Made by a program: the position numbers and the translations under genes
In this document: piece after piece, positions 731 to 63,874 of the stretch
Layout of the letters: every line of letters begins with the position of its first letter
Numbering within the stretch: position 1 is the first letter of the stretch
Assembly: GCA_017558065.1 (NCBI GenBank)
Contig: JAFYWK010000024.1
Coordinates: 37,474 to 101,473, forward strand
From: Paludibacteraceae bacterium
GTDB taxonomy: Bacteria > Bacteroidota > Bacteroidia > Bacteroidales > Paludibacteraceae
Reading direction: 5' to 3'
Length of the DNA: 64,000 nucleotides
Notes under the pieces: generated by a model
What the model was told of the DNA's origin: nothing
Seen by the model: the letters and a program-made list of their open reading frames with translations, nothing else
Databases searched by the model: none

Positions 731-758
731 GTTTACAGTTTATAGTTTATAGTTGAAA
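731..758 (-). repeat. Heptamer array abutting the murI start
   Basis: Forward units are GTTTACA, GTTTATA, GTTTATA, GTTGAAA. On the murI strand this reads AACTATA AACTATA AACTGTA and then runs into the TTG start. It is the same unit family as the array at 11109. Confidence 0.85.
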
Positions 759-775
759 GGCATGGAAATTCGGTG

Positions 776-807
776 CAAAGGTACAAAAAATAAATAAAAT
801 GTACAAA
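776..807 (-). promoter_or_regulatory. murI promoter
   Basis: Bacteroidota-type promoter on the minus strand: -33 TTTG at 807-804, 20-nt spacer, -7 TACCTTTG at 783-776. It is back to back with the dnaN promoter; the two -33 boxes are 3 nt apart. Confidence 0.8.
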
Positions 808-810
808 TAA

Positions 811-842
811 TTTGCATAAATGGCATTTTTTTTGTATCTTTG
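811..842 (+). promoter_or_regulatory. dnaN promoter
   Basis: -33 TTTG at 811-814, 20-nt spacer, -7 TATCTTTG at 835-842, followed by a 40-nt AT-rich leader to the ATG at 883. Confidence 0.85.
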
Positions 843-882
843 CAGGCAAAATCAAAAAGTATATAATTAAAACTGAAAGAAT

Positions 883-2004
883 ATGAAATTTAATGTATCA
901 AGCTCAAAATTGTTTGCTCAGTTGCAAGCAGTGAGTCGTGTGATTGCTGCAAAGAATAGTTTGCAGATTTTGGAAGCTGTGTTGTTTGACCTCGAAGGCG
1001 ATGTGCTGACCTTAACCGCTTCGGATAGCGAAACAACTATTCGCACTTCCTTGACCGTGGAAGATGCACAAGGTGCAGGTAAAGTGGCAGTGGGTGGTAA
1101 GTTGCTGTTGGAGACCCTGAAAGAGTTCTCGGAGCAGCCATTGACTTTCCAGATAGATGAGCAGAACTTTGGTTTGAATATTACCAGCGCAAATGGTACA
1201 TATAGTTTTGTGGGTGCGAATGGTTTGGAATATCCAGAGATGCCTGTTGAGGATGGTGAAAACACTTTCTCTATGCCAGCAAATGTGTTGTTGGATGCAA
1301 TCAATAAGACTATCTTCTGCACGGCAGATGATGAGTTGCGTCCTGTGATGAACGGTATCTATTTCGACTTGAGCGAGGAGAAAATAGCTATGGTGGCTAC
1401 AGACGCGCATCGTTTGGTACGTTATATCAACGAAGGTGTGAAGGGTTCGCAAGCGGTTAGCTTCATTTTGCCAAAGAAACCAGCACAACTGCTCAAACAA
1501 GTGCTGCAAAAAGAGGCAGAAGAAGTGAAAGTGACCTTTGGTCAAAAGAATGCGAAGTTCGAGTTTGGCACAACCGTAATCGTTTGTCGCCAAATCGAGG
1601 GCCGTTTCCCTAATTATAATGCGGTGATTCCACAAAATAACACCAACAAGGTGTTGGTGGATCGCCAAACGATTGTGAATGCCTGCAAGCGTGTGGCTGT
1701 GTTTGCGAACACAGGTACGAGCTTGTTGAAACTGGCGTTGAGTGAGAATCAAATCAAGATTTCTGCACAAGATATTGACTTCTCTACTTCAGCAGAGGAG
1801 ACTATCAGTTGCGATTATACTGGCATGCCAATGGCCATCGGCTTCAAGGCGCCATTCTTGATTGAGATATTGGCGAATGTAGCTTCGCAAGAAGTGGTTC
1901 TTCAATTGGCTGACCCTGCTCGTGCTGGTCTGATTTTACCAGCTGAGAATGAGGAAGGACAAGATTTGTTGATATTGTTAATGCCAATGCTCCTCAACGA
2001 CTAA
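883..2004 (+). CDS. dnaN: DNA polymerase III subunit beta (sliding clamp)
   Basis: Ring-forming clamp that tethers DNA polymerase III to DNA. The 373-aa length is normal for the family. The N-terminus (MKFNVSSSKLFAQLQAVSRV), the central EGRFPNYNAVIP motif and the C-terminal LMPMLLND (equivalent of the MPMRL client-binding tail) identify it. Its stop TAA shares its last base with the ATG of the exonuclease gene (TAATG), so the two are probably translationally coupled: clamp plus a clamp-era exonuclease. dnaA is not adjacent, and nothing nearby looks like a replication origin. Confidence 0.97.
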   Translation: MKFNVSSSKLFAQLQAVSRVIAAKNSLQILEAVLFDLEGDVLTLTASDSETTIRTSLTVEDAQGAGKVAVGGKLLLETLKEFSEQPLTFQIDEQNFGLNITSANGTYSFVGANGLEYPEMPVEDGENTFSMPANVLLDAINKTIFCTADDELRPVMNGIYFDLSEEKIAMVATDAHRLVRYINEGVKGSQAVSFILPKKPAQLLKQVLQKEAEEVKVTFGQKNAKFEFGTTVIVCRQIEGRFPNYNAVIPQNNTNKVLVDRQTIVNACKRVAVFANTGTSLLKLALSENQIKISAQDIDFSTSAEETISCDYTGMPMAIGFKAPFLIEILANVASQEVVLQLADPARAGLILPAENEEGQDLLILLMPMLLND

Positions 2005-2795: not shown

Positions 2796-2798
2796 CCA

Positions 2799-2818
2799 CT
2801 CTACACAATTCTACACAA
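2799..2818 (+). repeat. Decamer repeat upstream of rnz
   Basis: Units CTCTACACAA and TTCTACACAA occupy most of the 25-nt gap between the exonuclease stop and the TTG start of rnz. Same unit family as the arrays at 11271, 14451 and 26007. Confidence 0.75.
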
Positions 2819-2820
2819 CA

Positions 2821-3603: not shown

Positions 3604-4962
3604 ATGGCGAAAGTTTCCACGCAATATATATGTTCAAACTGCGGTGCTAAGGCGCCTCAGATGATTGGTCGTTGCCCTGTGTGTGGCGAGTGGGGAACAT
3701 ATGAGGAAGAACTGAAAACGGAAATCGGAAAAGGGAAAGGCGGTGTCAGTCTTCGGCGCGGTGCTAAAGCGCAACGTCTGCACGAGGTGGATGCGAAAGA
3801 GGAAATGCGCATTGATATGCATTCTTCGGAACTCAATCGCGTGCTGGGTGGTGGATTGGTGCCTGGTAGTTTGGTGCTATTAGGTGGAGAACCTGGAATA
3901 GGCAAATCCACTCTGGCGCTACAGGTGTTGCTGAAAATGGGGGAGAAGAAAACGCTGTATGCCAGTGGAGAGGAAAGTGCTAAACAATTGAAACTGAGAG
4001 CGGAACGTCTATCAGGCGATGCCTCTAATTTATATATCTTGGCGGAGACTTCGTTGGAGCGAATCTTGGATAGCGTGACGGAAATCCAACCCGAGATAGT
4101 GGTGGTGGATAGTATTCAAACGATTGGTACAGAGGCGATAGAAGCGAGTATTGGCAGTCTGAGCCAAGTGCGCGAGTGCGCAGCGCGGATTTTGCAGTAC
4201 GCTAAAGAGAAGAATGTGCCTTTTGTGATTGTCGGCCATATCAATAAGGAAGGTTCGCTGGCAGGTCCCAAAGTGCTGGAGCATATTGTGGACACGGTGT
4301 TGCAGTTTGAGGGTGACCAGCATTATGTATATCGTATTTTGCGTGCGCAGAAGAATCGTTTTGGTAGCACGAGCGAGTTGGGTATCTTCCAGATGCAGCA
4401 TGATGGTTTGCGTGAGGTGGTGAATCCGAGCGAGTTGCTGCTGTCGAGCAATCGTGAGGGCTTGTCGGGTATAGCCATTGCTGCGGCGGTGGAAGGCGTG
4501 CGCCCTTTGCTCATTGAGGTGCAGGCGTTGGTGGCGAGTGCTGCATATGGTACGCCCCAACGTAGCAGCACAGGCTTTGACGGCAGGCGACTGAACATGC
4601 TTTTGGCAGTATTAGAGAAGCGCGTGGGCTTCAAACTCATGCAGAAAGATGTATTTGTGAATATTGCAGGCGGACTGCGCGTGAATGATCCTGCTATAGA
4701 CTTAGCTGTATTGGCAGCGGTGTTGTCATCGAATATGGACATTGCATTAGATGAACAAACATGCGTGACAGGCGAAGTGGGATTAGCAGGTGAGATACGT
4801 CCTGTAAACCGAATTGACCAACGCATAAGAGAAGCTGAAAAACTTGGTTTTCAGCAGATTATTGTGCCGGCAGGGCAGAAGTATAATATGCACGGATTGA
4901 AGATAAAAGTGATGGAAGTGAGCCGTGTGTCAGAGGCCTTCAAAATTTTATTGAAGAAATAA
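3604..4962 (+). CDS. radA: DNA repair protein RadA
   Basis: RecA-related branch-migration ATPase of recombinational repair. 452 aa with the expected order: N-terminal C4 zinc finger (C10, C13, C24, C27), Walker A GGEPGIGKST ending near residue 103, the RadA-specific KNRFG motif near residue 250, and a C-terminal Lon-protease-like domain (GGLRVNDPAIDLAVLAA). It begins at the base after the rnz stop codon. A promoter for the following barrel gene starts right after its stop. Confidence 0.97.
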   Translation: MAKVSTQYICSNCGAKAPQMIGRCPVCGEWGTYEEELKTEIGKGKGGVSLRRGAKAQRLHEVDAKEEMRIDMHSSELNRVLGGGLVPGSLVLLGGEPGIGKSTLALQVLLKMGEKKTLYASGEESAKQLKLRAERLSGDASNLYILAETSLERILDSVTEIQPEIVVVDSIQTIGTEAIEASIGSLSQVRECAARILQYAKEKNVPFVIVGHINKEGSLAGPKVLEHIVDTVLQFEGDQHYVYRILRAQKNRFGSTSELGIFQMQHDGLREVVNPSELLLSSNREGLSGIAIAAAVEGVRPLLIEVQALVASAAYGTPQRSSTGFDGRRLNMLLAVLEKRVGFKLMQKDVFVNIAGGLRVNDPAIDLAVLAAVLSSNMDIALDEQTCVTGEVGLAGEIRPVNRIDQRIREAEKLGFQQIIVPAGQKYNMHGLKIKVMEVSRVSEAFKILLKK

Positions 4963-4994
4963 TTTGCATATATCAAAAAAAAGTAGTACCTTTG
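4963..4994 (+). promoter_or_regulatory. Promoter of the outer-membrane/BAM operon
   Basis: -33 TTTG at 4963-4966, 20-nt spacer, -7 TACCTTTG at 4987-4994, immediately after the radA stop. The leader to the ATG at 5039 is about 40 nt. It probably drives the run of genes from 5039 to the skp genes. Confidence 0.85.
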
Positions 4995-5038
4995 CGGGTC
5001 AAATGTGTATAAATATAAAAAACAATAAAATAGTCGTT

Positions 5039-5854: not shown

Positions 5855-5887
5855 TAGGCTATTAACTCGCGTAGTAAGGCTATATTA

Positions 5888-6655: not shown

Positions 6656-6671
6656 TCCTTGTGACCTAAAT

Positions 6672-11108: not shown

Positions 11109-11143
11109 AACTATCAACTGTCAACTATAAACTGTCAACTGTA
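11109..11143 (+). repeat. Five heptamers filling the space before a small gene
   Basis: AACTATC AACTGTC AACTATA AACTGTC AACTGTA, exactly 5 x 7 nt, ending at the base before the ATG at 11144. Same unit family as the array abutting the murI start. Confidence 0.9.
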
Positions 11144-11269
11144 ATGGCTGACGGCTATTTGGAATCTCACTATGCTGAATACGAACAACGTAAGGCAGCA
11201 TGGCTCAAAAAAAAGAAAAAAATAAAGCCTCGTCCCTTGGTTGAAAAACCAGAGGACGAAGCCTTATAA
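11144..11269 (+). CDS. Small basic protein (41 aa)
   Basis: Encodes MADGYLESHYAEYEQRKAAW followed by a lysine cluster and an acidic tail ending EDEAL. The MAD-x-YLE opening resembles very short, unnamed proteins I recall from other Bacteroidales genomes, so it is probably real despite its size. Function unknown; no signal peptide or membrane segment. It is flanked by a heptamer array upstream and a decamer array downstream, and is co-directional with the skp genes and the MFS gene. Confidence 0.65.
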   Translation: MADGYLESHYAEYEQRKAAWLKKKKKIKPRPLVEKPEDEAL

Positions 11270-11270: not shown

Positions 11271-11317
11271 TACAACTCTAAACAACTCTACACAATTCTA
11301 CACAACTTTACACAACT
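11271..11317 (+). repeat. Decamer array between the small gene and the MFS gene
   Basis: Units TACAACTCTA, AACAACTCTA, CACAATTCTA, CACAACTTTA, CACAACT(ATG): five 10-nt units in exact phase, filling the whole spacer and ending at the start codon of the transporter. Confidence 0.9.
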
Positions 11318-12810: not shown

Positions 12811-12865
12811 ACGCACTATTCACGCACAATAGACGGACAATACACGTACAATAAGCGCACAATTC
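12811..12865 (+). repeat. Five 11-nt tandem units in a non-coding stretch
   Basis: ACGCACTATTC, ACGCACAATAG, ACGGACAATAC, ACGTACAATAA, GCGCACAATTC: strictly 11-nt phase with core CACAAT. It lies in the roughly 430-nt gene-free stretch 12692-13120, which otherwise holds a terminator, a promoter and a structured leader. Confidence 0.88.
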
Positions 12866-13738: not shown

Positions 13739-14998
13739 ATGAATTGGGATTTTCTCATAAAAGATAAAGATTCACTTTGCGTGAGTACTGATACACGCAA
13801 TCTGCCTGCAGGTTGCGTGTTCTTTGCCTTGCATGGTGAGCGTTTTGATGGTAACAAGTTCGCCCTACAGGCGCTGGAGCAGGGCGCTTCTCTCGCCGTT
13901 ATCGACGACCCAGAGGTGTATCTTCAAGCGCAGCGATCTTCAAGCCCGCAGGGCGATCTTCAAGGCGCAGCCGATCGCCCTCGTCTCCTCCTCGTAGAGG
14001 ATACACTTCTTGCCTTGCAAGAACTCGCGCGCGCATGGCGCCGCGAACTCGGATTGCCTATCATCGGTATCACTGGCACGAACGGAAAGACTACTACCAA
14101 AGAACTCTTGGCAACCGTTCTTTCCACCAAATACAACCTCCACTACACGCAGGGAAACCTCAACAACCAGATAGGTGTACCCCTTACCCTATTACAAATC
14201 ACGCGTGCGCACGAGCTTGCAATCGTGGAGATGGGAGCTTCTCACCCTGGCGACATCAAGGAACTTGTGGATATCGCAGAACCCAACTACGGACTCATCA
14301 CCAATGTCGGTCGTGCGCATTTGGAAGGGTTTGGCTCGTTTGAGGGCGTGCAACGCACCAAACAAGAACTCTACGACTACCTCCTTGCCCACAATGGCAC
14401 CATCTTCCGCAATGCCGACAATCCATTCCTTGCCCAAATGCAGAACCACGCTACACAACTGCTACACAACTCTACACAACTCTACACCACCGGCACCATG
14501 CCCTCTGGCACACATCTTGTAGGGGAATATAATGCAGAGAACGTGTCGGCAGCGATTTGTGTGGGGGAGTATTTCGGTATCCCTTCCGAGCAAGCGTTAG
14601 AGGCCATTCGCCAATATGTACCAACCAACAACCGCTCCCAAGCATTGCAAACGGCCAGCAACCAACTGATTGTGGATGCCTATAATGCCAATCCGACCTC
14701 TATGCAAGCGGCCATTAATGCCTTCAAAGGCGATACCTATATTCTCGGAGCGATGCGCGAGTTGGGCGACTATTCCCACTTAGAGCACCAGAATATTGTG
14801 AATATGTTGGCAGAGCGCAAAGCAGACACTGTCTTCCTCGTCGGAGAAGAGTACCTGCAAACCACATCGCCATACCCCGTGTTTGAGAATGTAGAACAAT
14901 TGCATAAGTATTTAGAAGACAATCCAATAAAAGGGAAGCATATCCTCCTCAAAGGATCACGCTCCACTCGAATGGAACAACTATTAGATGTATTATGA
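13739..14998 (+). CDS. murF: UDP-MurNAc-tripeptide--D-Ala-D-Ala ligase
   Basis: Cytosolic Mur ligase that adds D-Ala-D-Ala to finish the peptidoglycan precursor. 419 aa; N-terminal STDTRNLPAGCVFFAL, ATP loop GITGTNGKTTTKE, then GASHPGDIKELV, GEYNAENVSAAI and DAYNANPTSMQAAI, in order. Two segments are repeat-encoded and in frame: residues 61-79 (YLQAQRSSSPQGDLQGAAD, between AVIDDPEV and RPRLLLVED) and about residues 238-251 (ATQLLHNSTQLYTTG), where other MurF proteins have a longer structured stretch. It is away from the dcw cluster and overlaps the next gene by ATGA. Confidence 0.94.
   Translation: MNWDFLIKDKDSLCVSTDTRNLPAGCVFFALHGERFDGNKFALQALEQGASLAVIDDPEVYLQAQRSSSPQGDLQGAADRPRLLLVEDTLLALQELARAWRRELGLPIIGITGTNGKTTTKELLATVLSTKYNLHYTQGNLNNQIGVPLTLLQITRAHELAIVEMGASHPGDIKELVDIAEPNYGLITNVGRAHLEGFGSFEGVQRTKQELYDYLLAHNGTIFRNADNPFLAQMQNHATQLLHNSTQLYTTGTMPSGTHLVGEYNAENVSAAICVGEYFGIPSEQALEAIRQYVPTNNRSQALQTASNQLIVDAYNANPTSMQAAINAFKGDTYILGAMRELGDYSHLEHQNIVNMLAERKADTVFLVGEEYLQTTSPYPVFENVEQLHKYLEDNPIKGKHILLKGSRSTRMEQLLDVL
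13919..13976 (+). repeat. GATCTTCAAG repeat, in frame in murF
   Basis: Three units: TATCTTCAAGCGCAGC, GATCTTCAAGCCCGCAGGGC, GATCTTCAAGGCGCAGCC, then GATC. Lengths are 16, 20 and 18 nt, each with a GC-rich pairing tail. Adds about 19 residues to MurF. Confidence 0.8.
14451..14491 (+). repeat. CTACACAACT decamers, in frame in murF
   Basis: CTACACAACT, G, CTACACAACT, CTACACAACT, CTACACCACC. Same family as the non-coding arrays at 2799 and 11271, but translated here. Confidence 0.85.
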
Positions 14999-21429: not shown

Positions 21430-21506
21430 CCTTTAACCTTTAGCCTTTAACCTTTAACCTTTAGCCTTTAACCTTTAACCTTTAGCCTTTAACCTTTAAC
21501 CTACAA
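21430..21506 (-). repeat. Ten-unit heptamer array between murE and mraY
   Basis: Forward CCTTTAA (A) and CCTTTAG (G) in the order A G A A G A A G A A, then CCTACAA, which includes the murE stop. The G units recur every three (21 nt). On the sense strand it reads TTAAAGG/CTAAAGG. It fills nearly all the space up to 9 nt before the mraY ATG. Confidence 0.95.
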
Positions 21507-24826: not shown

Positions 24827-25135
24827 TTATTCTATTTTTATTGCGGAGCGGTGACTCTCTTTGAGGTTGCTCCCTTGTTCTTCCAGTAGTTTGGATATGG
24901 ATGACTGTCGTGTCATGGTCATCACTTGTGCGTTAATGGTTTGTTGGGTGAAGTAGGCATCTTGCAGTTCTTTGTTGAGGTCGTTTAGTCTATCTTGTTG
25001 GCGTTCTGACTGATAGCCGAAATAGATATACACAAAGAACAATCCGCATATCAGCAACGTCAGTTTGTATTGTCTTCGTACCCACTGCTGTGCCAATATG
25101 TCTCCGCTTAATATGTCCTTTATCGAAAATTTCAT
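24827..25135 (-). CDS. ftsL: FtsL-like cell division protein
   Basis: 102 aa. Cytoplasmic basic N-terminus, one transmembrane helix (about residues 28-43) and a leucine-spaced coiled coil (QDRLNDLNKELQDAYFTQQ). Sequence identity in this family is low; identification rests on size, topology and position between rsmH and ftsI. It would form the FtsB-FtsL type complex that activates FtsW-FtsI. A heptamer array occupies the whole spacer before its ATG. Confidence 0.82.
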   Translation of the reverse strand: MKFSIKDILSGDILAQQWVRRQYKLTLLICGLFFVYIYFGYQSERQQDRLNDLNKELQDAYFTQQTINAQVMTMTRQSSISKLLEEQGSNLKESHRSAIKIE

Positions 25136-25137
25136 AA

Positions 25138-25172
25138 CCTCTCACCTTTAACCTCTCACCTCTAACCTCTCT
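25138..25172 (-). repeat. Heptamer array spanning the rsmH stop and the ftsL leader
   Basis: Forward CCTCTCA, CCTTTAA, CCTCTCA, CCTCTAA, CCTCTCT. The rsmH stop (TAA) lies inside unit 2 and the last RsmH residues are repeat-encoded; the array ends 2 nt before the ftsL ATG. Confidence 0.93.
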
Positions 25173-26191
25173 GCTACGCGCAGTTTTGCGCTTCGGGCTC
25201 TTGGGTTGCGTTCTACTTCTTCTTCGCTGGCGGTAAGTCCTTTCTCAATGACCTTGAATGGGCTCAATATATTGCCGTAGAAGTCTTTTTCTATTGTTCC
25301 TTCCAGGTTACCCGAGCGCAGGAAGTTCTTCACGATTCTGTCTTCCAGCGAGTGGTAGGTCAGTATGGCTATTCTGCCGCCTGGTTTGAGTAGGTCTTTG
25401 GCGGCGAGTAGCATTTCGCGCAGTGCACCCATCTCATCATTCACTTCAATACGCAGTGCTTGAAACACCTTCGCCAACTCTTTCTTCGCCCCTGCGGGTA
25501 TATCTAATTCGATTTCTTGAAGTTCCCTTCCCTTTAGGGAGGGGGTAGGGGTAGGCTTTCTTCCCATCACCAAGGCAACCAGCTCCTCCGTTCGCTCGAT
25601 TGCTTTCTGTTCTCTGGCTTTCACGATTTTCTTGGCGAGTTGTCGTGAGTTTTTCATCTCACCGTATATATATAACACGCGCGCGAGGTCTTCTTCGCTG
25701 TAGCTGTTCAGTATGTCGGCTGCTGTTTTGCCGCCTGTTTGGTTCATGCGCATGTCGAGTGGGGCGGAGAAGCGAAAACTGAATCCGCGTTCGGGGCAGT
25801 CAAAGTGGTGGAATGACACGCCCAAGTCGGCCAACAAACCATCTATCTGTTGCACGCCGTAGTAGTCCATGAAGTTGCGCAGGTAGCGGAAGTTGCTGTG
25901 TACAAACTGCCATTTTGAACTATTCTGAACCATTCTGAACCATTCTGAACCATTCATCGCATTGCGATACGCATCCAGATCTTGGTCAAACGAATACAAC
26001 TTTCCACTACACAATTCTACACCACTACTACACAATTCTACACCATTCTGAACAGCCCGAAGGGCCTCCAATATCGCCCTCGAGTGTCCTCCGCCTCCGA
26101 AGGTAACGTCCACATACAACCCAGAGGGTTGAATATTCAACCCTTGGATTGTCTCTCTCAGCATTGCGGGAATGTGATAAATCTCATTCAT
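25148..26191 (-). CDS. rsmH: 16S rRNA (cytosine1402-N4)-methyltransferase, repeat-inserted
   Basis: SAM-dependent methylase of 16S rRNA. 347 aa, against about 305-315 normally. HIPAMLRETIQGLNI, DVTFGGGGHSRAI, SFDQDLDAY, LLADLGVSFHHFDCPERGFSFR, LDMRMNQ, and ILTYHSLEDRIVKNF are the conserved blocks. Three in-frame insertions account for the extra length: residues about 47-63 (QNGVELCSSGVELCSG), about 80-94 (NGSEWFRMVQNSSKW) and 212-224 (KPTPTPSLKGREL), each encoded by a repeat. The C-terminal EVRG is also repeat-encoded. All core motifs are intact, so it is probably active. Confidence 0.94.
   Translation of the reverse strand: MNEIYHIPAMLRETIQGLNIQPSGLYVDVTFGGGGHSRAILEALRAVQNGVELCSSGVELCSGKLYSFDQDLDAYRNAMNGSEWFRMVQNSSKWQFVHSNFRYLRNFMDYYGVQQIDGLLADLGVSFHHFDCPERGFSFRFSAPLDMRMNQTGGKTAADILNSYSEEDLARVLYIYGEMKNSRQLAKKIVKAREQKAIERTEELVALVMGRKPTPTPSLKGRELQEIELDIPAGAKKELAKVFQALRIEVNDEMGALREMLLAAKDLLKPGGRIAILTYHSLEDRIVKNFLRSGNLEGTIEKDFYGNILSPFKVIEKGLTASEEEVERNPRARSAKLRVAERLEVRG
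25525..25556 (+). repeat. Dispersed G-rich element, copy 2, in frame in rsmH
   Basis: CCCTTCCCTTTAGGGAGGGG then GTAGGGGTAGGC. Read on the minus strand it encodes PTPTPSLKGRE. The orientation relative to the gene is opposite to that in murI and the USP-like gene. Confidence 0.88.
25911..25954 (-). repeat. CATTCTGAAC decamers, in frame in rsmH
   Basis: CATTTTGAAC, TATTCTGAAC, CATTCTGAAC, CATTCTGAAC, CATT: exact 10-nt phase, encoding SEWFRMVQNSSKW. Confidence 0.92.
26007..26053 (-). repeat. CTACACAATT decamers, in frame in rsmH
   Basis: CTACACAATT, CTACACCACT, A, CTACACAATT, CTACACCATT, CTGAAC. The end matches the CATTCTGAAC unit of the array 55 bp away. Encodes VQNGVELCSSGVELC. Confidence 0.9.
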
Positions 26192-26775: not shown

Positions 26776-26817
26776 CAAAGTTACAAAAAATATTTGATAT
26801 TTCCCCACTTTTCCCCA
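26776..26817 (-). promoter_or_regulatory. mraZ (dcw) promoter with overlapping MraZ boxes
   Basis: -7 TAACTTTG at 26783-26776. The expected -33 position (26807-26804) has no TTTG; it lies inside TGGGG-AAAAG-TGGGG (26817-26803), the TGGGN-N5-TGGGN pattern known for MraZ. This suggests autoregulation by occlusion of the -33 region. Confidence 0.7.
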
Positions 26818-26925
26818 CAAAAAATGTTTCAATATGTTTTTGAGTATATTTTCAACAAAGTTTTCAACAACTTAAACGCCAGTTAATCAATTTCTTATGC
26901 ATATTATCCGAAAAGTGGTGAAAAG

Positions 26926-26940
26926 TGGGGCATTATTGCT
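26926..26940 (+). promoter_or_regulatory. Upstream MraZ-like box pair, inverted
   Basis: TGGTG-AAAAG-TGGGG on the plus strand, nearly the same 15-mer as the promoter-proximal pair but in the opposite orientation and about 110 bp away. May be a second operator. Confidence 0.5.
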
Positions 26941-27192: not shown

Positions 27193-27291
27193 CGACACGT
27201 AACCGACACATAACCGATACATAACCGATACATAACCGATACATATGAATACTCCATGAATATCCCGTGAATATCCCATGAATACCCTATG
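27193..27291 (+). repeat. 99-bp array of nine 11-nt units, two unit types in one phase
   Basis: CGACACGTAAC, CGACACATAAC, CGATACATAAC (twice), CGATACATATG, then AATACTCCATG, AATATCCCGTG, AATATCCCATG, AATACCCTATG. The unit sequence changes at unit 5/6 while the 11-nt phase continues without a slip. Confidence 0.95.
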
Positions 27292-41293: not shown

Positions 41294-41929
41294 TTAGTCA
41301 CACAGCGAAAACAAATCAGCGCGCGGATTCACCAGCATCACGGGCACAGGGCTATGGCGGATGACATACTGTTCGGGTGGACCAAAGAGCCAATCGTCCA
41401 GTCCATATTCGCGACTGGCAGTGAGGATAATCAAGCCTACCCCCGTCCCCTCCCTAAAGGGAAGGGAGGTATATGTATGGAGTTCCTTGTGGATATGGAA
41501 ACTGTCGCCTTTGGCTACGCGCTCTTCGTATGTAATTGTCTCACCAGTACGCTCCGCGATGGTCTGAATATGTGTGATGATGCGCTGGGTGTTGCGCTTC
41601 GCCTTGCTGCCGTAGTCGTTCGCGCGTAATAATATAAGGTGCGCACCCGTCTTGCGTGCCAAGTAGGTGCAGATCTCCGCTTTATACACTTCCTCTTCTA
41701 GCATGGTGACGGGAACGAGGATGGAAGAACCAGGAACCAAGAACCAGGAGTCAAGACCTTTTTGATTCGTCAGATCAGTCGTAAGTGCTATGTCTTTGCT
41801 CTTTGTTCCTTGTTCCCTAATCACGAGATACGGGCGACGTTCCTCGCGACAAGCGTCTAAGACCTGCTGCACACCGCGGCGCGTACCGTCGCAATGCTCC
41901 ACGCGTATATCATCCGAAGAAAAAATCAT
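41294..41929 (-). CDS. Universal-stress-protein-like protein with three repeat insertions
   Basis: 211 aa. Two alpha/beta segments resemble the USP fold: ILVPVTMLEEEVYKAEICTY, TGAHLILLRAND, then LIILTASREYG and RHSPVPVMLVNP near the end (the last like the USP GSxxxxxxxxxxPVxVV region, without the glycine-rich loop). Three segments are repeat-encoded and in frame: residues about 37-44 (REQGTKSK), 57-69 (NQKGLDSWFLVPG) and 152-165 (TYTSLPFREGTGVG). The entire spacer to engB is a heptamer array. Function unknown. Confidence 0.7.
   Translation of the reverse strand: MIFSSDDIRVEHCDGTRRGVQQVLDACREERRPYLVIREQGTKSKDIALTTDLTNQKGLDSWFLVPGSSILVPVTMLEEEVYKAEICTYLARKTGAHLILLRANDYGSKAKRNTQRIITHIQTIAERTGETITYEERVAKGDSFHIHKELHTYTSLPFREGTGVGLIILTASREYGLDDWLFGPPEQYVIRHSPVPVMLVNPRADLFSLCD
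41435..41472 (-). repeat. Dispersed G-rich element, copy 4, in frame in the USP-like gene
   Basis: Minus strand CCTCCCTTCCCTTTAGGGAG then GGGACGGGGGTAGGC, encoding TSLPFREGTGVG. Same orientation relative to the gene as in murI. Confidence 0.88.
41726..41753 (-). repeat. GGAACCA heptamers, in frame
   Basis: AGAACCA, GGAACCA, AGAACCA, GGAGTCA in exact 7-nt phase, within the USP-like gene. Confidence 0.88.
41805..41832 (-). repeat. TTTGTTC heptamers, in frame
   Basis: TTTGCTC, TTTGTTC, CTTGTTC, CCTAATC. Same unit as at the start of the TPR gene (61303). Confidence 0.82.
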
Positions 41930-41934
41930 CCTCG

Positions 41935-41962
41935 CCTCTCACCTTTAACCTCTCACCTAACT
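41935..41962 (-). repeat. Heptamer array filling the engB/USP spacer
   Basis: CCTCTCA, CCTTTAA, CCTCTCA, CCTAACT; the engB stop is inside the last unit and the array reaches almost to the USP-like ATG. Same units as at rsmH/ftsL. Confidence 0.92.
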
Positions 41963-43360: not shown

Positions 43361-43372
43361 ATACTTGTAATG

Positions 43373-43478
43373 AGGTTAAAGATTAGAGGTTAAAGGTTAG
43401 AGGTTAAAGGCTGGTAATATGCAGCTGTGCTGCTACTTCCTACCTCTCGCCTTTCGCCTAATCACCTCTCGCCTAATG
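43373..43478 (-). repeat. Inverted heptamer arrays with a central hairpin (yidC to barrel gene)
   Basis: Plus-strand AGGTTAA, AGATTAG, AGGTTAA, AGGTTAG, AGGTTAA, AGGCTGG (43373-43414), then GCAGC-TGT-GCTGC (43421-43433), then CCTCTCG, CCTTTCG, CCTAATCA, CCTCTCG, CCTAATG (43443-43478). The halves are nearly symmetrical about 43427, so the transcript can form a long imperfect stem. Confidence 0.88.
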
Positions 43479-45440: not shown

Positions 45441-45500
45441 GTTCAACGTGGTTCAATATTGTTCCGTATTGTTCAACGTGGTTCAATATCGCTCATTTTG
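45441..45500 (-). repeat. Six decamers in the yidC leader
   Basis: Forward GTTCAACGTG, GTTCAATATT, GTTCCGTATT, GTTCAACGTG, GTTCAATATC, GCTCATTTTG in exact 10-nt phase, making up most of the transcribed leader between promoter and ATG 45405. Confidence 0.93.
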
Positions 45501-55099: not shown

Positions 55100-55115
55100 T
55101 TTTTTAGTACCTTTG
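55084..55115 (+). promoter_or_regulatory. Amylase promoter
   Basis: -33 TTTG at 55084-55087, 20-nt spacer, -7 TACCTTTG at 55108-55115. Its -33 box lies within the spacer of the mnmA promoter, so the two cannot bind polymerase at the same time. Confidence 0.85.
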
Positions 55116-55156
55116 CATGCTTAAAATGTCAAATTCACAAATTAACCATTATTAAC

Positions 55157-58417: not shown

Positions 58418-59289
58418 CGATTGACTGCTTTGACGCGATAGCCAGCGGCTTTGAGTTGGGCGAGTAGCCCATCCTCACCGCCCAAGTAAATGGCATTGAG
58501 CGTGATAAACGCCTTACCTTCACGGAGGTAGGGCGTTAATCGTTTCACCCATTGCTGATTGCGTTGGGCATAGACCTTGTAGTCGGAGAAGGATAACGAG
58601 GTCTGGTTGTCCGGGCTCTTGACGAAGTATGCCATATCCGACAAGCGTCCATAGCGATACATGTCCAGCAACGAACGTTCGAATCGCACTTCCTTCTCGG
58701 GGTATTCTACAACTTTCTTGAGTTCTTCGCATTGCCAATGAAAAGGTTCGCGGTCGAAGAGCATATACATAGTCTCGCCTATATCGTCCAGTCCATATAC
58801 GGGGATATTGGATTGTGCTGCCACTTTCTCGAAGAATGTCTCCATGGATCGGTCTTCGTCGTAGTTGAGCCATTTTTTGAGCAATTCGTTGCGGTACATC
58901 TCTGCCAGATACGATGGTTTCATGCGTCCCAACTGATCCAGCCCCATGCCCAGATTGATGCGCAATGCCTCATCAATCTCGAGGTATTGGTCGTGGCTAT
59001 AGAAATTGCTCAGTCGTACCGAGTCGGGTAGAAGGGCTGCTTGACGTAGGGCAGCGATGGCTTCGTAGTCCTGCATGGCAAACTCGGTGATGACCTTGTT
59101 GCACGCGGCATAGCACTTGAACACGTTGGGAATGGTGTCTATGAAGGTCATGTCCACGATGCGGTTGGTCGCCAATACATAGGATGGCGCAGCGGCAGAG
59201 TTGCCCGAGATACGGTATAGCACTTGTGCGTGTATGCAGCCAATAGCCAATAGCCAATAGCCCACTGATAGGAGTATGATTCGTTTCAT
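58414..59289 (-). CDS. TraB/GumN-family protein
   Basis: 291 aa. Signal peptide, then LYRISGNSAAAPSYVLATNRIVDM, DYEAIAALRQAALLPDSVRL and AFITLNAIYLGGEDGLLAQLKAAGY, the TraB/GumN pattern with its C-terminal glycine-rich end. An extracytoplasmic, possibly peptidase-like, protein of poorly known role. The signal peptide (YWLLAIG repeated in period 7) is encoded by three perfect heptamers. The stop overlaps the amylase stop by 4 nt. Confidence 0.82.
   Translation of the reverse strand: MKRIILLSVGYWLLAIGCIHAQVLYRISGNSAAAPSYVLATNRIVDMTFIDTIPNVFKCYAACNKVITEFAMQDYEAIAALRQAALLPDSVRLSNFYSHDQYLEIDEALRINLGMGLDQLGRMKPSYLAEMYRNELLKKWLNYDEDRSMETFFEKVAAQSNIPVYGLDDIGETMYMLFDREPFHWQCEELKKVVEYPEKEVRFERSLLDMYRYGRLSDMAYFVKSPDNQTSLSFSDYKVYAQRNQQWVKRLTPYLREGKAFITLNAIYLGGEDGLLAQLKAAGYRVKAVNR
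59238..59258 (-). repeat. Three perfect AGCCAAT heptamers in a signal peptide
   Basis: AGCCAAT x 3 (21 nt, in frame), followed by AGCCCAC. Encodes the core of the TraB/GumN-like signal peptide. Confidence 0.92.
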
Positions 59290-61334
59290 TGGAAGCGTGA
59301 GATTAAATTATATGCTTGATAGATGCCCAGTTCGCCTGCTTTGCTCAGGTCGGCAATACCTTTGTCGTTTTCCCCGATGTAGATATAGGTCAATCCGCGG
59401 TTGAAGTATGCTTCGGCAAAATCGCTATCCGTGGCGATGGCTTGGGTGTAGTAGGTGATTGCGGCTTTGAAGTCCTGCTGAATACATAGCATGTTGGCCT
59501 TGTTGTAATATGCAAAGGAGAAGTCGGGCAGGTGGTTCATGACATAATCGTAGTCGCGCATCATGAGTTCGAAGTCGGCTTTGTCGGTTGCTTCACCCAT
59601 GGCGCGTTTGTATTCCAAGTACTTATACCGCCAATTGGCTCGGCAGAAGTAGGCGAAATAGAGTGTTCCGTCAAGGAGGATAGCACGTGTGGCATCGTCC
59701 AATGCGGAGGAGTAGTCTTGCACTAGGGCAAACTCAAAAGCGCGTGCGATATAGGCAGCACAGAGTAGGGCGTTGTGTTGCGAGTGGGGGGAGGCAATCT
59801 GCTGCAACATGTCAATCTGATGGGACAGTTGGCTGATTTGCGCAAAGTGCTGGTTCACCATCTCGGCGGTGAGGGCCATCTCCTTGGTGGTAAAGCGCAG
59901 GGGGGCAGGTAGTTGCATGCTGCGGTTGTAGGCATCGACTGTGATATGCGAATAATTGGTCTGGCGCAACGCATTGGCTTGGCTACTAGTGGCGTAGTAG
60001 GATAGGAAGATATTGGGTTCGTTCACAATATCGGTATAGCGTTTTTGCACGGTACCGCGTGTGTCGCTATTGTATTTGTTTTCCTCATTGTTGCTCTCTT
60101 GATTTTGTGCTGCAAGGGCGGAGAACTCTTTGCGGCGGTCTCGTTGTTGAGGTTGGTAGTCGGCTACCTGCATTTGCGTTTGCAGCGACTGTATGCTATC
60201 CTTCTTTTGCTCCATGAGGTATGCCTGTTGGCGCAATTGATAGGCCTGTTTGCCGTGTCCGAGTGCAGTCTGGGCTTGGGCAGCGAGGTAATAGGCGGGT
60301 AGGAAATAGGGGTATCGCTGCATGATGGTGTTGAAGTCTTGCAGGGCTTCTTGCCACTGCTGTAGTTGCAGCAGTATCATACCGCGTTGGTAGTACATCT
60401 CTATCTGTTCGGGAGCGAGCAAGATAGCTTGCGAGAAGTCTTCTAAAGCGCGATTGTAGTCGCCCACTTCTTGTCGCAGGACACCACGGTTGTAGTAGCA
60501 CTGTGCATCGCTCGGAGCCAGTGTGACGGCTTTGTCATAATCTGCCAGCGCGTTGCGGTAGTTATGTTTGCGGTAATAGATGATGCCTCGATTGATATAG
60601 TCGCCTGCCCATTTGCTGCCATAGCCGATGGACTTGCTCAGCGATGCGAGTGCGTCGTCTGGCTGATTTAGCATGAGTTGCACTAATCCCAGAGCGGACC
60701 AGTTGGCAGGGTTCTGCGAGTCGTATTCGGTGGCTTGGACAAAGGCGTTGAGGGCGCAGATGGTGTCGTTGCTTCTCAGGCAAATGCTGCCTTTCTCGAA
60801 ATGCAGAGCTGCCGATTGTGGCTCGCGATGGAGTAGGTGGTTGATGTCCTGTAGGGCGAGGTCGTATTGCTGGAGTTCTGCCAGCACGTCGGCTCGCATG
60901 GCGATGTAGGTCTTGTTTTCGGGGGCAAAGAGGAGGGCTTCGCTGAAATCCTGTGCGGCTTTCTCCAGTTGGTGGGTCTGCCGGTAGATATATCCGCGCG
61001 TGTAGTATGCGCCTGGCTGGAAGGGGTTGCGTTCGATGGCGGCATTGCAGTCCATCTCGGCTCCTGTGTAGTCGCCCAACTGTATCTTGGCTATGGCACG
61101 CAGCATGTATGGTTCGCTCAGATAGGGCTTGAGTTTGATGACCTGATTAAAATACTGGATACTAAGCACATAGTCATCGAAGTAAAGGGCATTGCGACCG
61201 ATGGCGGTAATACGGTCGGTGTTGAGTTGTGCGGAGATGGAGCCAAGAGTAAGGAAACATGAACCAAGACAAATCAGTAGTATTCGTCTCAGTCGAAAGT
61301 GGTATGTTCCTTGTTCTTTGTTCATAATGTCCAA
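59286..61334 (-). CDS. Periplasmic TPR-repeat protein
   Basis: 682 aa. Signal peptide after a repeat-encoded N-terminus (MDIMNKEQGT). At least eight tetratricopeptide repeats over residues about 35-365 (EPYMLRAIAKIQLGDYTGAE, AGDYINRGIIYYRKHNYRNA, QCYYNRGVLRQEVGDYNRA), a linker, and two to three more near the end (FSFAYYNKANMLCIQQDFKA). Probably a scaffold. ATGA overlap with the TraB-like gene; 9 nt after PBP1A. Confidence 0.88.
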   Translation of the reverse strand: MDIMNKEQGTYHFRLRRILLICLGSCFLTLGSISAQLNTDRITAIGRNALYFDDYVLSIQYFNQVIKLKPYLSEPYMLRAIAKIQLGDYTGAEMDCNAAIERNPFQPGAYYTRGYIYRQTHQLEKAAQDFSEALLFAPENKTYIAMRADVLAELQQYDLALQDINHLLHREPQSAALHFEKGSICLRSNDTICALNAFVQATEYDSQNPANWSALGLVQLMLNQPDDALASLSKSIGYGSKWAGDYINRGIIYYRKHNYRNALADYDKAVTLAPSDAQCYYNRGVLRQEVGDYNRALEDFSQAILLAPEQIEMYYQRGMILLQLQQWQEALQDFNTIMQRYPYFLPAYYLAAQAQTALGHGKQAYQLRQQAYLMEQKKDSIQSLQTQMQVADYQPQQRDRRKEFSALAAQNQESNNEENKYNSDTRGTVQKRYTDIVNEPNIFLSYYATSSQANALRQTNYSHITVDAYNRSMQLPAPLRFTTKEMALTAEMVNQHFAQISQLSHQIDMLQQIASPHSQHNALLCAAYIARAFEFALVQDYSSALDDATRAILLDGTLYFAYFCRANWRYKYLEYKRAMGEATDKADFELMMRDYDYVMNHLPDFSFAYYNKANMLCIQQDFKAAITYYTQAIATDSDFAEAYFNRGLTYIYIGENDKGIADLSKAGELGIYQAYNLISRFQ
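61303..61323 (-). repeat. TTTGTTC heptamers at the TPR start codon
   Basis: TATGTTC, CTTGTTC, TTTGTTC, encoding the first residues after the ATG. Same unit as at 41805. Confidence 0.8.
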
Positions 61335-61343
61335 TGATGTCCC

Positions 61344-63635
61344 TTACTTGCAACCGGCTTCAGCATCGAACCATTCGGGCACATCAAACTGTTCCTCTAC
61401 GCTGTAGCCCAGTTCCTCGTCGGCGTAGACCTTCTGCATATAGAGTGCCCAGATAGGCAGTGCCATGTTGGCTCCTTGTCCTGCGGACATGTTGTCGAAG
61501 TGGATAGATCGGTCTTCGCCTCCTACCCATACGCCGCTGACCAGCGAAGGAGTGAAGCCCACGAACCAGCCGTCGGAGTGGTTTTGCGAAGTACCCGTCT
61601 TGCCACCCATAGGTGCTTTGAGTCCATAGCGGAAGCGTGCGCGTACGCCTGTGCCGTGGTCCATGACGTTGCGTAGCATGTATATCATCTTGTATGAGGT
61701 GGTCTCGCTGATGATCTCGTAGGTCTTGGGTGTGAAGGTAGCCAAGATATTGCCGTTGTTATCTTCGATGCGTGTGACAAAGAGTGGTTCTACGCGGATA
61801 CCCTTGTTGGGGAAGGTGGTGTAGGCATCGACCATCTCTTTCACGCTCACCTCGCATGGACCGAGACATAGACTGACAACAGGGTCGAGTTGGCCCTCAA
61901 TACCGAAGGAACGCATCATGCGTACCAGTTGTTCGGGTGTGAAGAGCGACATGAGGTAGGCAGTGATCCAGTTGCTGGATTTCTCGAGACCCCAGTTGAG
62001 TGTGACCATCTCGCCTTGGTTGGCGTGGTGATCATCGCGTGGCGTCCACGCTACACCATTGCCATCGACGAGTGTGATGGAGTCGTTGACGGTGCTATCG
62101 CATGGCCACATACCTTCGTCCATGGCCAGTGTGAATAGGTAAGGTTTGATGGTTGAGCCCACCTGACGGCGACCAGAAGTGACCATGTCGTATTGGAAGT
62201 GTGTGAAGTTAGGTCCTCCCACGTATGCTTTCACAGCGCCCGAGTGTGCCTCCATGGACATGAAGCCGCAACGCAAGAAGTGTTTGTTCCAGCGTATGGA
62301 GTCCATAGGTGTCATGGTGGTGTCTATGAGCCCGTTGTATGAGAACACGCGCATGGGGACGGGTGTGTTGAACGTCTTTTTGATCTCGGTCTCGCTCATA
62401 CCTTGTTTTTTGAGCACGCGATAGCGGTCGGTCTGGCGCATGGAGCGATTCATGATGGCATCAATGTCCTCAGGTGTAAGGTCTTGAGAGAAAGGAGCAT
62501 AACTCTTGCGGCGTTTCTCGCGGAAGAAACTCTTTTGCAGGTCTTGCATATGTTCGCTCACCGACTCTTCGGCATATCGTTGCATGCGCGAGTCGAGGGT
62601 GGTGTAGATGCGTAGTCCGTCTTGATAGAGGTCATAGGGAGTGCCGTCGGGCTTATGATTCTTGTTGCAGAAGCCATAGAGCGGGTTCTCGTCCCATTGG
62701 CGTTTGTCGATATGGTATTGCAGTCGGTTCCACTCGGAGTATTGGCTGGCTTTGGGTTCTTTGGCAGTCAGCACTTGTCGCAGGTATTCGCGGAAATAGG
62801 GGGCTATACCCTGTTTGTGGTCCACGGATTGGTATTTGAGTTCGATGGGCAATGCTTTGAGCGAGTCGCACACTTGGTCGGTGATATACTCGTATTTGCA
62901 CATCTGGTTGAGTACCGTATTACGGCGATTGAGGGCGCTTTCTGGACGACGGCGGGGGTTGTAGAGTGAAGGGTTTTTACACATGCCCACCAGCATGGCT
63001 GCCTCCTCCAGTTTCAGTTCGGCTGGTGTGGTGCTGAAATACACCTGTGCAGCGGACTTGATACCCACAGCGTTGTAAAGGAAGTCAAACTGATTGAGGT
63101 ACATGGTCAGTATCTCTTCTTTGGAGTAGAGTCGTTCCAACTTGGTGGCAATCACCCATTCGATAGGTTTTTGCAGGGCGCGTTCGAAGATGTTGTTGGC
63201 GCGAGGCGACCACAACTGCTTGGCTAATTGCTGTGTGATGGTACTTCCGCCACCGGCTTTGCCGAGCATGATGACGGCTCGGAATAGTGACTTGATGTCC
63301 ACGCCCGTATGGTCGTAGTAGCGCACATCTTCGGTGGCAATGAGAGCGTTAATCATGTTGGGAGAAATATCGTCGTAGGTCACGCCTACGCGATTCTCGT
63401 TGCGGTAGTATCGTCCCAGCAGCTGCAAGTCGGAGGAAATGACTTCTGTGGCGAACTTGTTTTTTGGGTTTTGCAGTTCATCCAGCGGAGGTAGATAGCC
63501 CAACCACCCTTGTGTAATCATGCCAAAGAGGGCAACGATGGATACTACACCCACGCTGAAGATACTCCAGAAGTAAGCTAAAAAACGCTTTTTAAAGGTC
63601 TTATTGTCTGTTTGTTTGGTTACATTCTTTTCCAT
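61344..63635 (-). CDS. mrcA: Bifunctional penicillin-binding protein 1A
   Basis: 763 aa. N-terminal TM (about residues 22-42), GT51 glycosyltransferase with catalytic E102 in TEDVRYYDH and GGSTITQQLAKQL, then transpeptidase with Ser494 in GSTIK, SSN in EKSSNWITAYL, and KTG in GGKTGTSQNHS. Polymerises and cross-links peptidoglycan in the periplasm. Linked to a TPR gene and a TraB-like gene on the same strand. Confidence 0.95.
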   Translation of the reverse strand: MEKNVTKQTDNKTFKKRFLAYFWSIFSVGVVSIVALFGMITQGWLGYLPPLDELQNPKNKFATEVISSDLQLLGRYYRNENRVGVTYDDISPNMINALIATEDVRYYDHTGVDIKSLFRAVIMLGKAGGGSTITQQLAKQLWSPRANNIFERALQKPIEWVIATKLERLYSKEEILTMYLNQFDFLYNAVGIKSAAQVYFSTTPAELKLEEAAMLVGMCKNPSLYNPRRRPESALNRRNTVLNQMCKYEYITDQVCDSLKALPIELKYQSVDHKQGIAPYFREYLRQVLTAKEPKASQYSEWNRLQYHIDKRQWDENPLYGFCNKNHKPDGTPYDLYQDGLRIYTTLDSRMQRYAEESVSEHMQDLQKSFFREKRRKSYAPFSQDLTPEDIDAIMNRSMRQTDRYRVLKKQGMSETEIKKTFNTPVPMRVFSYNGLIDTTMTPMDSIRWNKHFLRCGFMSMEAHSGAVKAYVGGPNFTHFQYDMVTSGRRQVGSTIKPYLFTLAMDEGMWPCDSTVNDSITLVDGNGVAWTPRDDHHANQGEMVTLNWGLEKSSNWITAYLMSLFTPEQLVRMMRSFGIEGQLDPVVSLCLGPCEVSVKEMVDAYTTFPNKGIRVEPLFVTRIEDNNGNILATFTPKTYEIISETTSYKMIYMLRNVMDHGTGVRARFRYGLKAPMGGKTGTSQNHSDGWFVGFTPSLVSGVWVGGEDRSIHFDNMSAGQGANMALPIWALYMQKVYADEELGYSVEEQFDVPEWFDAEAGCK

Positions 63636-63663
63636 AGTGTATATATTTTTACTAATTAACCGA

Positions 63664-63695
63664 CAAAGGTACGCTTTTTTTCTTATATATGCAAG
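63664..63695 (-). promoter_or_regulatory. mrcA promoter
   Basis: -7 TACCTTTG at 63671-63664, 20-nt spacer, -33 CTTG at 63695-63692. A second TACCTTTG (63758-63751) lacks a -33. Confidence 0.7.
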
Positions 63696-63818
63696 CGTAA
63701 GCCGTTTTTTTTGTTGATAAAAGTTGCGGCATGCTTACCGAACGCGAGTGCAAAGGTAGTAATAAAATCGCTCTTTTGTTGCTCAAGCTTTATCAATAAT
63801 GCGAATTACTTGTATTTG

Positions 63819-63826
63819 TATTTTTG
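63819..63826 (+). promoter_or_regulatory. Possible promoter of a small ORF
   Basis: TATTTTTG, matching TAnnTTTG, about 55 nt before ATG 63882; no clear -33. Confidence 0.4.
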
Positions 63827-63841
63827 CCTCGCCAATCAGCA

Positions 63842-63874
63842 GAAGATGAGCCGAAGATAAGCCGAAGATAGAAC
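63842..63874 (+). repeat. Three 11-nt units before the last small ORF
   Basis: GAAGATGAGCC, GAAGATAAGCC, GAAGATAGAAC: same period as the arrays at 12811 and 27193. Confidence 0.85.

Follow-up and report, generated by a model that had tools for sequence, protein, structure and literature searches.

Short tandem arrays with units of 7 to 11 nt in a Paludibacteraceae genome: period range, unit families and turnover

The window, a 64,000-nt stretch of contig JAFYWK010000024.1, raises the question of how one genome comes to hold many short tandem arrays whose periods fall in a narrow range and whose units vary. The hosts are a group of uncultured gut bacteria with named relatives in the Paludibacteraceae and Bacteroidales. 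Within the open-licence literature, we found no description of repeats in the window's genus, and a search for tandem repeats in Paludibacteraceae gave no papers.

Excess over controls and the period range

Arrays at periods of 7-11, 14, 18 or 20-22 nt were counted in the window with TRF after merging of overlapping rows, and 20 Markov-4 shuffles served as control. There are 43 such arrays at a score of at least 30 versus a control mean of 6.8 (maximum 13), 28 versus 1.6 at a score of at least 36, and 15 versus 0.1 at a score of at least 50; the remaining periods give 4 versus 1.6 and 2 versus 0.9 at the two lower thresholds. The 28 arrays bear out the initial annotation, which had claimed at least twenty. 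A stricter lag detector retains 11 arrays of period 7-11.

A wider count of arrays with at least 2.8 near-perfect copies covered 455 kb of the window's own assembly and 80 related loci (1.48 Mb), these being the best 80 of 572 rsmH matches and all assumed to belong to the window's genus. For periods 7, 8, 9, 10 and 11, it yields 27, 5, 3, 9 and 8 arrays in the own sequence and 173, 14, 3, 1 and 49 in the related loci, with 0 and 2, respectively, at periods 12-19. Over both sets, periods 2-5 are close to control, period 6 is slightly above it, and 12-19 is almost empty. Three Markov-4 runs together produced one array of period 7 or more, and one codon-shuffled run produced none. In this wider check, which the initial annotation had called for, the excess is present at 7-11, and these controls rule out a coding or composition artefact. 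An assembly artefact is unlikely because arrays recur at orthologous sites in many separate assemblies. Heptamers are the most abundant class (27 of 83 own arrays and 173 of 275 from related loci). The scarcity of 1-6-nt arrays fits the presence of an 889-aa open frame that matches MutS_I.

Per 100 kb, arrays of period 7-11 number 18.4 in the own sequence and 18.6 in the 80 related loci, compared with a patchy 8.5 in 20 genomes of 12 other Paludibacteraceae genera (4.6 without one very dense stretch) and 1.7 in 16 genomes from other families. By extrapolation (18.4 per 100 kb over 2.44 Mb), a genome would hold about 450 arrays.

Arrays of the window and their residence in genes

Heptamer arrays are spread along the window. 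The AACTATA family appears as CAGTTTA/TAGTTTA at 729-754, where the sequence differs in the compared genome G014, and an AACTGTC/AACTATA array lies at 11109-11144. We read four arrays as phase or strand variants of one AGGTKAR family: CCTTTAA (21430-21502; 10.4 copies with a 21-nt higher-order unit, and different sequence in both L081 and G014), TAACCTC/TCACCTC at the rsmH-ftsL junction (25135-25171; 28 nt, or four units, longer in L081), CTCACCT (41931-41958) and AGGTTAA/AGGTTAG (43372-43410). The last is the first of two arms flanking a hairpin-like stretch; the second, CCTCTCG/CCTTTCG (43443-43474), is inverted. Other heptamers comprise a degenerate array (3705-3738, forward strand; not repeated in G014) in a gene named RadA-like from its domains (3604-4962), GAACCAG (unit GGAACCA) in a universal-stress-protein gene (41727-41749, reverse strand), and AGCCAAT (59238-59262), which lies either at the start of a TraB-family gene or a short way upstream of it, the start codon being uncertain. 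TTTGTTC had been said to recur at 41805 and 61303; a weak TGTTCCT array of 2.7 copies does lie at 61305-61323, but TRF calls no array at 41805.

The 10-nt arrays include a TCTACACAAT pair of the 10-mer family between two ORFs (2800-2818), 4.6 copies of ACAACTCTAC whose 3' limit is the ATG of an MFS gene (11272-11317, forward strand; two units fewer in G014), and the degenerate GTTCAACATG (45441-45486). A Mur-ligase-family gene (13739-14998) holds a repeat of about 20 nt, ATCTTCAAG, with a short G+C-rich stretch (13920-13976), and an in-frame 10-nt array, CTACACAACT (14451-14487, forward strand; different sequence in G014), which lies just beyond the portion of the middle domain that was matched. 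Two more in-frame 10-nt arrays reside in rsmH (mraW; 25148-26191, reverse strand), CTACACAATT/CTACACCACT at site 1 (26006-26049, reverse strand) and CATTCTGAAC at site 2 (25910-25955, reverse strand); CATTCTGAAC and CTACACAATT are read as a single 10-mer family. A weak 9/18-nt repeat, CTAGTACTA, lies in an M16 peptidase gene (37750-37789, reverse strand; longer and of different sequence in G014). Arrays of 11 nt are ACGCACAATAC (12811-12863), AGCCGAAGATA (63838-63870), and CGATACATAAC (27193-27245) with ATGAATACCCC (27245-27291), the first and second halves of a dispersed composite element. Thus, the units listed in the initial annotation as AACTATA, CCTTTAA, AGCCAAT, GGAACCA, CATTCTGAAC and CGATACATAAC are present at window loci; GTTCAACGTG, the name given there to the unit at 45441, is degenerate and CTAGTACTA is weak. 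The 10-nt pair AGTGGGGAAA upstream of mraZ (26800-26818, reverse strand), which we take to be the MraZ operator, looks ordinary and outside the array system; a similar tandem box is found in 37 of 80 mraZ upstream regions.

Besides the spacers between genes, arrays are found in the reading frame of core enzymes, among them RsmH, Mfd and a Mur ligase. By the gene calls, which a simple script made and whose starts are imprecise, 24 of 83 own arrays and 80 of 275 from related loci fall within genes, and in most of these the unit length is no multiple of three (periods 7, 8, 9 and 10: 14, 3, 2 and 5 own; periods 7, 8, 9 and 11: 64, 3, 7 and 6 related). Because the first 2.5 kb of the window are also covered by locus L042, array 729-754 enters the own sets twice, once as divergent spacer and once as CDS; the unique counts are 82 rather than 83 arrays, 23 rather than 24 in genes, and 152 rather than 153 in 832 kb. 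The 11-mers are seldom genic (0 of 21 own, 6 of 68 related), and 9 of the 21 own ones lie in divergent spacers. The peptides that had been mentioned for other Bacteroidota are real in kind, given that genic arrays encode the recurrent LHNST, YTTLHN, NSQFTIHNSQ and KGERLKVKGE.

In RsmH, anchor-to-anchor lengths at three sites are 14-80, 13-58 and 38-121 aa in 65 parsed relatives versus 14-16, 14 and 44 aa in 5 parsed outgroup sequences, and arrays occur in 34 of 81 related ORFs versus none of 9 outgroup ORFs; the site 2 stretch is also short in the RsmH proteins compared from other families of the order. Inserts at different sites are alike (score at least 16) in 12 of 91 same-species pairs, compared with 3.0% of the 5450 pairs drawn from different species (p=8e-6), although in 4 of those 12 the inserts are of hairpin rather than tandem type. 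RsmH thus shows that a core enzyme can harbour fast-changing, repeat-derived stretches, which are relevant to protein annotation and to insertion tolerance.

Unit families and turnover between species

It had been stated that the unit differs at nearly every locus. Units are indeed many, but families recur within genomes, and the composite of two 11-mers is present in 10 copies, some of which share their upstream sequence over as much as about 200 nt; it is also retained at orthologous sites in relatives. Within one genome, a single 10-mer family recurs in Mfd, the Mur ligase and two sites of RsmH. Among the 178 genus genomes searched (own included), 26 match a 10-mer array and 89 match one 7-mer array. 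Consequently, while no single element spreads, as had been proposed, unit families do, and independent, unrelated units are ruled out by this sharing within the genome and across the genus. At each period from 7 to 11, units are shared more within the own genome than with other genomes (7-mers, 0.134 versus 0.033); outside the own genome, 8-mer sharing within 20-kb loci is no higher (0 of 3). Part of the sharing may come from composition, as with A+T-rich heptamers.

Over 31 loci, the 10-mer units form one pool, with Fst of 0.04-0.26 at the four most variable positions and five positions nearly fixed. For the 7-mer family, the same test depends on method: loosely assigned arrays give 0.32-0.85, a degenerate consensus 0.00-0.33. 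There is no support for 10-mer arrays having been copied whole, with unit order kept (mean z 0.21; z>2 in 7 of 171 pairs).

Turnover was followed in 17 species pairs, with identities of 87-97% over megablast-alignable DNA and 0.76-0.94 in whole-stretch alignments of ten pairs. From 127 array observations, 23 without a clear orthologous site were set aside. In 65 of the 104 followed, the array is absent or replaced at the same site in the related species (24 with a different array, 41 with none). The unit is kept in 39, of which 23 are equal in length, 6 differ by whole units and 10 differ otherwise. Unit number thus changes by whole units in some arrays, but 10 of the 39 kept arrays differ by lengths other than whole units. 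The description of the system as period-conserved and sequence-variable agrees with replacement by an array of the same period in 23 of 24 rows, most of them read from both species and two of them belonging to a single compound array; with 173 of 275 arrays being 7-mers, agreement in about half of the rows is expected by chance. At one 11-mer site common to many species, the mraZ-rsmH gap, unit sequence drifts. In a target-site duplication test, 28 indels of at least 12 nt were listed in 14 pairs, each of which may be a gain or a loss. Because each species is represented by one assembly and no event was caught in progress, we infer rates and the direction of gain or loss.

Origin of the arrays

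Long simple sequence repeats with 5-11-nt units (LSSR5-11) were reportedly described by Mrazek in 2007. According to PMC4679880, they exceed chance, heptamers are most abundant, and slippage is proposed. The window arrays are best read as a variant within this class, which they resemble in unit size, greater-than-chance length and commonness of heptamers. However, they differ in that 5-6-nt units are near control and the range is 7-11, the genome is not large (about 2.4 Mb), genic periods are mostly not multiples of three, and unit families are dispersed in the genome and replaced between related species. PMC4692102 and PMC4679880 describe dispersed short heptamer arrays, mostly intergenic and some genic, in cyanobacteria, Xanthomonas and Beggiatoaceae, and TAACTGA in a few Bacteroidetes, including two sets in Paludibacter; these papers track one or few units, whereas here a large number of units, in five periods, exist side by side and turn over. 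Borg repeats are pervasive and fast-evolving, in spacers and in genes, where they create variable protein stretches; their genic units are perfect, all divisible by three, 18-21 nt in the examples quoted and virtually all genome-unique (PMC9879509). The arrays here are likewise fast-changing in both places, but their ORF units are mostly not divisible by three and are not unique per locus. Rickettsia palindromic elements are single palindromes inserted in frame at tolerated places in genes; the present arrays share the in-frame residence but are tandem, with 7-11-nt units. Finally, BrickBuilt of Porphyromonas is an always intergenic minisatellite MITE with a 23-nt unit, leader, tail and inverted-repeat ends (PMC4596501); it too places dispersed tandem units in a Bacteroidales genome, but the units here are 7-11 nt and also genic.

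We lean towards a genome-wide regime in which 7-11-nt arrays are quickly born, locally homogenised and lost through intense slippage and template switching, with copying between loci. Array sites would be DNA tolerant of change, such as operon spacers, promoter gaps and tolerant protein stretches, and the engine acting on units of about 7-11 nt would be polymerase slippage plus microhomology template switching. The lower limit of 7 is perhaps the shortest loop that evades mismatch repair, or the shortest reliable primer. The same strand switching may also copy units among arrays at different loci, generating clade-specific families. Most arrays would be tolerated passengers, and some 11-mer arrays in divergent spacers were possibly recruited for regulation. 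Against a slippage engine is the abrupt upper edge at 11 nt, which has no known cause in slippage.

Purely local slippage, in which each array arises from its own neighbourhood and common units reflect composition and chance, as in classic LSSR5-11, is rather unlikely. It would account for whole-unit steps and for the likeness of adjacent units, and Borg repeats are reported as locally arising (PMC9879509). However, it is already strained by unit sharing that is higher within than between genomes, by the composite in 10 places, and by the 10-mer family common to RsmH, Mur ligase and Mfd. Dispersal, genic presence and clade-specific abundance would also be expected if the arrays were, or rode on, transposase-moved miniature transposons comparable to BrickBuilt or the Rickettsia elements, and the upstream sequence common to some composite copies and the G+C-rich hairpin-like stretches next to some arrays point the same way. 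Yet units of different families are unrelated, and, by eye, ends fall at differing unit phases in the 10-mer arrays and no terminal repeats are seen, the composite copies partly sharing a leader. Moreover, the own assembly, 94% complete, has no match to the Y1 transposase PF01797, which rules out a REP/RAYT system; overall, we consider mobile elements an unlikely source. One reverse-transcriptase domain is present in the genome, with no link to the arrays.

Selection for regulatory arrays, acting as translation signals or as binding sites in helical phase (10-11 nt), would fit the avoidance of genes by 11-mers and their frequency in divergent spacers, the orthologous retention of the composite, and the five nearly fixed 10-mer positions, but 7-10-mers are genic and often replaced between species, and units drift even at the widely shared mraZ-rsmH site; we consider this reading very unlikely. 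It is also quite improbable that a dedicated, size-gated process writes 7-11-nt arrays at many loci, genes included, from a small pool of partly degenerate units such as CTA-A/C-AC-A/C-A-C/T-N; if true, a templated or copy-and-switch mechanism as yet undescribed in bacteria would be at work. With about 450 arrays per genome and 178 genus genomes, these bacteria offer a natural system for tracing the birth, homogenisation and death of tandem repeats, and because the size range has two sharp edges, the dominance of 7-nt repeats in bacteria becomes a testable question.

Within arrays, adjacent units are most alike in 7-mers (z -5.5) and 11-mers (z -7.5), and also in 8- and 9-mers, as expected from local duplication. 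The 10-mer family lacks this likeness (z -0.1) and has no unit order common between loci; thus, neither simple slippage nor wholesale copying fully suffices for it. The mutation spectrum in arrays holds nothing clearly unusual; transitions are the largest class in five of six groups, and a single family may account for the A/C excess among own 8-10-mers. Helix-phased generation, suggested by the initial annotation, is rejected on the lag profiles, in which the 21-nt lag of 7-mer arrays (lag 3) is not favoured (z +1.1), and periods include 7, 8 and 9 besides 10-11. Taken by itself, the own genome shows a mild preference of 7-mers for a 42-nt lag (z -2.7, 29 pairs).

Array excess, period limits and range

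The assembly from which the window comes (2.44 Mb in 83 contigs) has as its nearest named relatives, among the best 80 of 572 rsmH matches, genomes that come mostly from the ruminant gut and carry the label Paludibacteraceae or Bacteroidales bacterium. In the window, TRF at a score of at least 30 finds 43 arrays with periods of 7-11 nt or multiples thereof versus 6.8 in 20 Markov-4 shuffles, and at a score of 50, it finds 15 versus 0.1. For the most part, the initial annotation gave its arrays the correct location and period, but a number of units that it treats as different are one family read in another phase or from the other strand. The period regularity that it claimed was borne out by a lag comparison with shuffled and codon-shuffled controls, which gave an excess at periods 7-11 in both 455 kb of the window's assembly and 1.48 Mb at 80 related loci around rsmH.

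With a lag-match detector that requires about 2.8 near-perfect copies per array, periods 7, 8, 9, 10 and 11 yielded 27, 5, 3, 9 and 8 arrays, respectively, in the 455 kb, and periods 12-19 yielded none; the related loci gave 173, 14, 3, 1 and 49, with 2 at periods 12-19 in the 1.48 Mb. Controls produced a single array in total at periods of at least 7. At periods 2-5, array numbers were close to controls in both samples, and at period 6, the related loci were somewhat above them (10 arrays versus 3 in codon-shuffled sequence and 3 across three Markov runs). Thus, the range of periods has two sharp edges, one between 6 and 7 and one between 11 and 12. When fewer copies are demanded, longer periods emerge in 832 kb of the window's assembly, chiefly 14, 18 and 20-22, with periods 12 and 13 still at zero there; a looser count at the 80 related loci gave 5 arrays at periods 12-13 and 12 at period 15.

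The trait is strong in the window's genome and its relatives, patchy across the family, and uncommon in those families sampled beyond it. The density of period 7-11 arrays per 100 kb is 18.4 in the window's assembly (832 kb examined), 18.6 at the related loci (6 of the 80 having none), 8.5 in other genera of the family (365 kb, 20 genomes, 12 genera) and 1.7 outside the family but within the order (4 arrays from 16 genomes, 240 kb in all). Stretches from the other genera range from 0 to 75 per 100 kb, and a single one holds 15 of the 31 arrays. L243:1-20000, from one of these genera, has 15 arrays over 20 kb, which makes it four times as dense as the window's genome.

About 87% of random 30-nt segments land in genes, whereas 24 of 83 arrays in the window's assembly (23 of 82 when the array at 729-754 is counted once) and 80 of 275 at the related loci do so; arrays therefore avoid genes, yet genes are far from array-free. 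Same-strand spacers hold 32 and 158 arrays, respectively, and divergent spacers hold 15 in the window's assembly. Avoidance is seen for the 11-mers (0 of 21 and 6 of 68 genic). Within genes, periods 7, 8 and 10 predominate, and consequently the frame must be held by total array length. One 10-mer family lies in frame at two sites of the assembly's own rsmH (25148-26191, minus strand), in a Mur-ligase-family gene, in an Mfd-type gene (TRCF domain) and in further genes. At 43372-43474, an inverted pair of 7-nt arrays surrounds a hairpin-like stretch, resembling an array with a palindromic core.

Turnover between species

Seventeen species pairs with 87-97% identity over alignable DNA provided 127 array observations, which are not independent, each pair being read both ways and some species occurring in several pairs. 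No clear orthologous site was present for 23. Among the remaining 104, unit and length were unchanged in 23, length differed by whole units in 6 and otherwise in 10, a different array occupied the site in 24, and 41 had no array there. Steps of 7, 8, 11, 14 and 28 nt were seen in individual cases, and at 11272, the window and a related genome (G014) are two 10-nt units apart in array length.

Replaced arrays retained their period in 23 of 24 rows, two of the 24 being parts of a single compound array; chance alone would give about half. In addition, the mraZ-rsmH spacer, which ranges from an overlap up to 388 nt, contains arrays in 30 of the 80 sequences where mraZ could be recognised, and 20 of those 30 carry 11-mers whose unit varies by species. 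This is the best support for the earlier description of the arrays as period-conserved and sequence-variable. The simplest cause is that copying of units retains the period while mutations are homogenised. Two 10-nt direct repeats lie upstream of mraZ (26800-26818 and 26910-26928); the former, which matches MraZ-type operators, is also found upstream of mraZ in relatives.

Unit families and possible mechanisms

A composite 11-mer element, (CGATACATAAC)n(ATGAATACCCC)m, is present 10 times in the window's genome, with wider flanks that are mostly unrelated, though some copies have in common a leader or roughly 200 nt of upstream sequence. It occurs in 9 of 178 genus genomes, this one included. 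Of the same 178, 26 match a 10-mer-family array and 89 match a 7-mer array of the AGGTTAA type; some genus genomes have tens of first-look, unscored 10-mer or 7-mer candidates. At every period from 7 to 11, units are shared more within the window's genome than with other genomes. The pool-like behaviour of units is the strangest observation of the analysis. In the 10-mer family (141 units, 31 loci), five positions are nearly invariant, and four vary inside most arrays, largely among the same few letters (Fst 0.04-0.26); unit order is not kept from locus to locus. The plain reading would be that units spread recently from a master array that was long and mixed. For the 7-mer family, Fst depends on array assignment, being 0.32-0.85 or 0.00-0.33, the latter for arrays picked by a degenerate consensus, a choice that biases Fst downwards.

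The data show that arrays exist, that some step by whole units, that likeness is greatest between neighbouring units, that arrays disappear or give way to others, and that unit sequences recur within a genome. Slippage together with microhomology template switching is the inferred engine. MutS is encoded in the window's assembly, and its removal of short loops would thus be compatible with the lower period edge, the upper edge falling outside this account. It is less likely that a transposase-driven element makes or carries the arrays, given that array ends vary (terminal repeats were assessed by eye) and that no Y1 transposase was found in the window's assembly, which is 94% complete. A regulatory role for the composite 11-mer is possible from its placement: of the 10 copies, 4 lie in spacers of called divergent gene pairs, 1 lies between genes on the same strand, and for 5 a gene is called on just one side; moreover, the element is retained at orthologous sites in relatives. 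Elsewhere in the assembly, an open frame of 338 aa at locus L207 contains a single reverse-transcriptase domain.

The nearest known class to the arrays is that of the long simple sequence repeats with 5-11-nt units (LSSR5-11), reported by Mrazek and colleagues; according to a later summary, heptamers are dominant there and slippage is the proposed cause (PMC4679880). Neighbouring systems, as the cited portions describe them, are the heptamers of Beggiatoaceae, Xanthomonas and Nostoc (PMC4679880; PMC4692102) and the Borg repeats (PMC9879509). Unlike all of these, to the extent of those portions, the arrays of this genome and its relatives combine five coexisting periods, bounded by sharp edges, with genic arrays whose period is no multiple of three, unit families that are dispersed, and replacement between related species.

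Variable sites of RsmH

In the 65 of 81 related RsmH sequences that could be parsed (16 could not), the distance between anchors at three sites is 14-80, 13-58 and 38-121 residues, and 19-23 different lengths occur. A further stretch has 14 residues in all 65; it is longer in the genus sequences L019, L021 and L027, outside the 65, and in outgroup L031, which is unparsed. The four stretches measure 14-16, 14, 14 and 44 residues in outgroups (5 of 9 parsed). Arrays are present in 34 of 81 related RsmH ORFs and absent from all 9 outgroup ORFs. Inserts from different sites resemble each other in 12 of 91 same-species pairs versus 3.0% of 5450 different-species pairs (76 of 81 sequences parsed; p=8e-6, an indicative value, with related species counted repeatedly), and 4 of these 12 were judged by eye to be hairpin-type. 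At the third variable site (25523-25555), the window's rsmH has a short palindrome-like insert encoding PTPTPSLKGRE, and similar hairpin inserts occur at the same site in relatives. In two rsmH loci, L110 and L130, in-frame chains of differing G+C-rich hairpins represent a second kind of insert beside tandem arrays.
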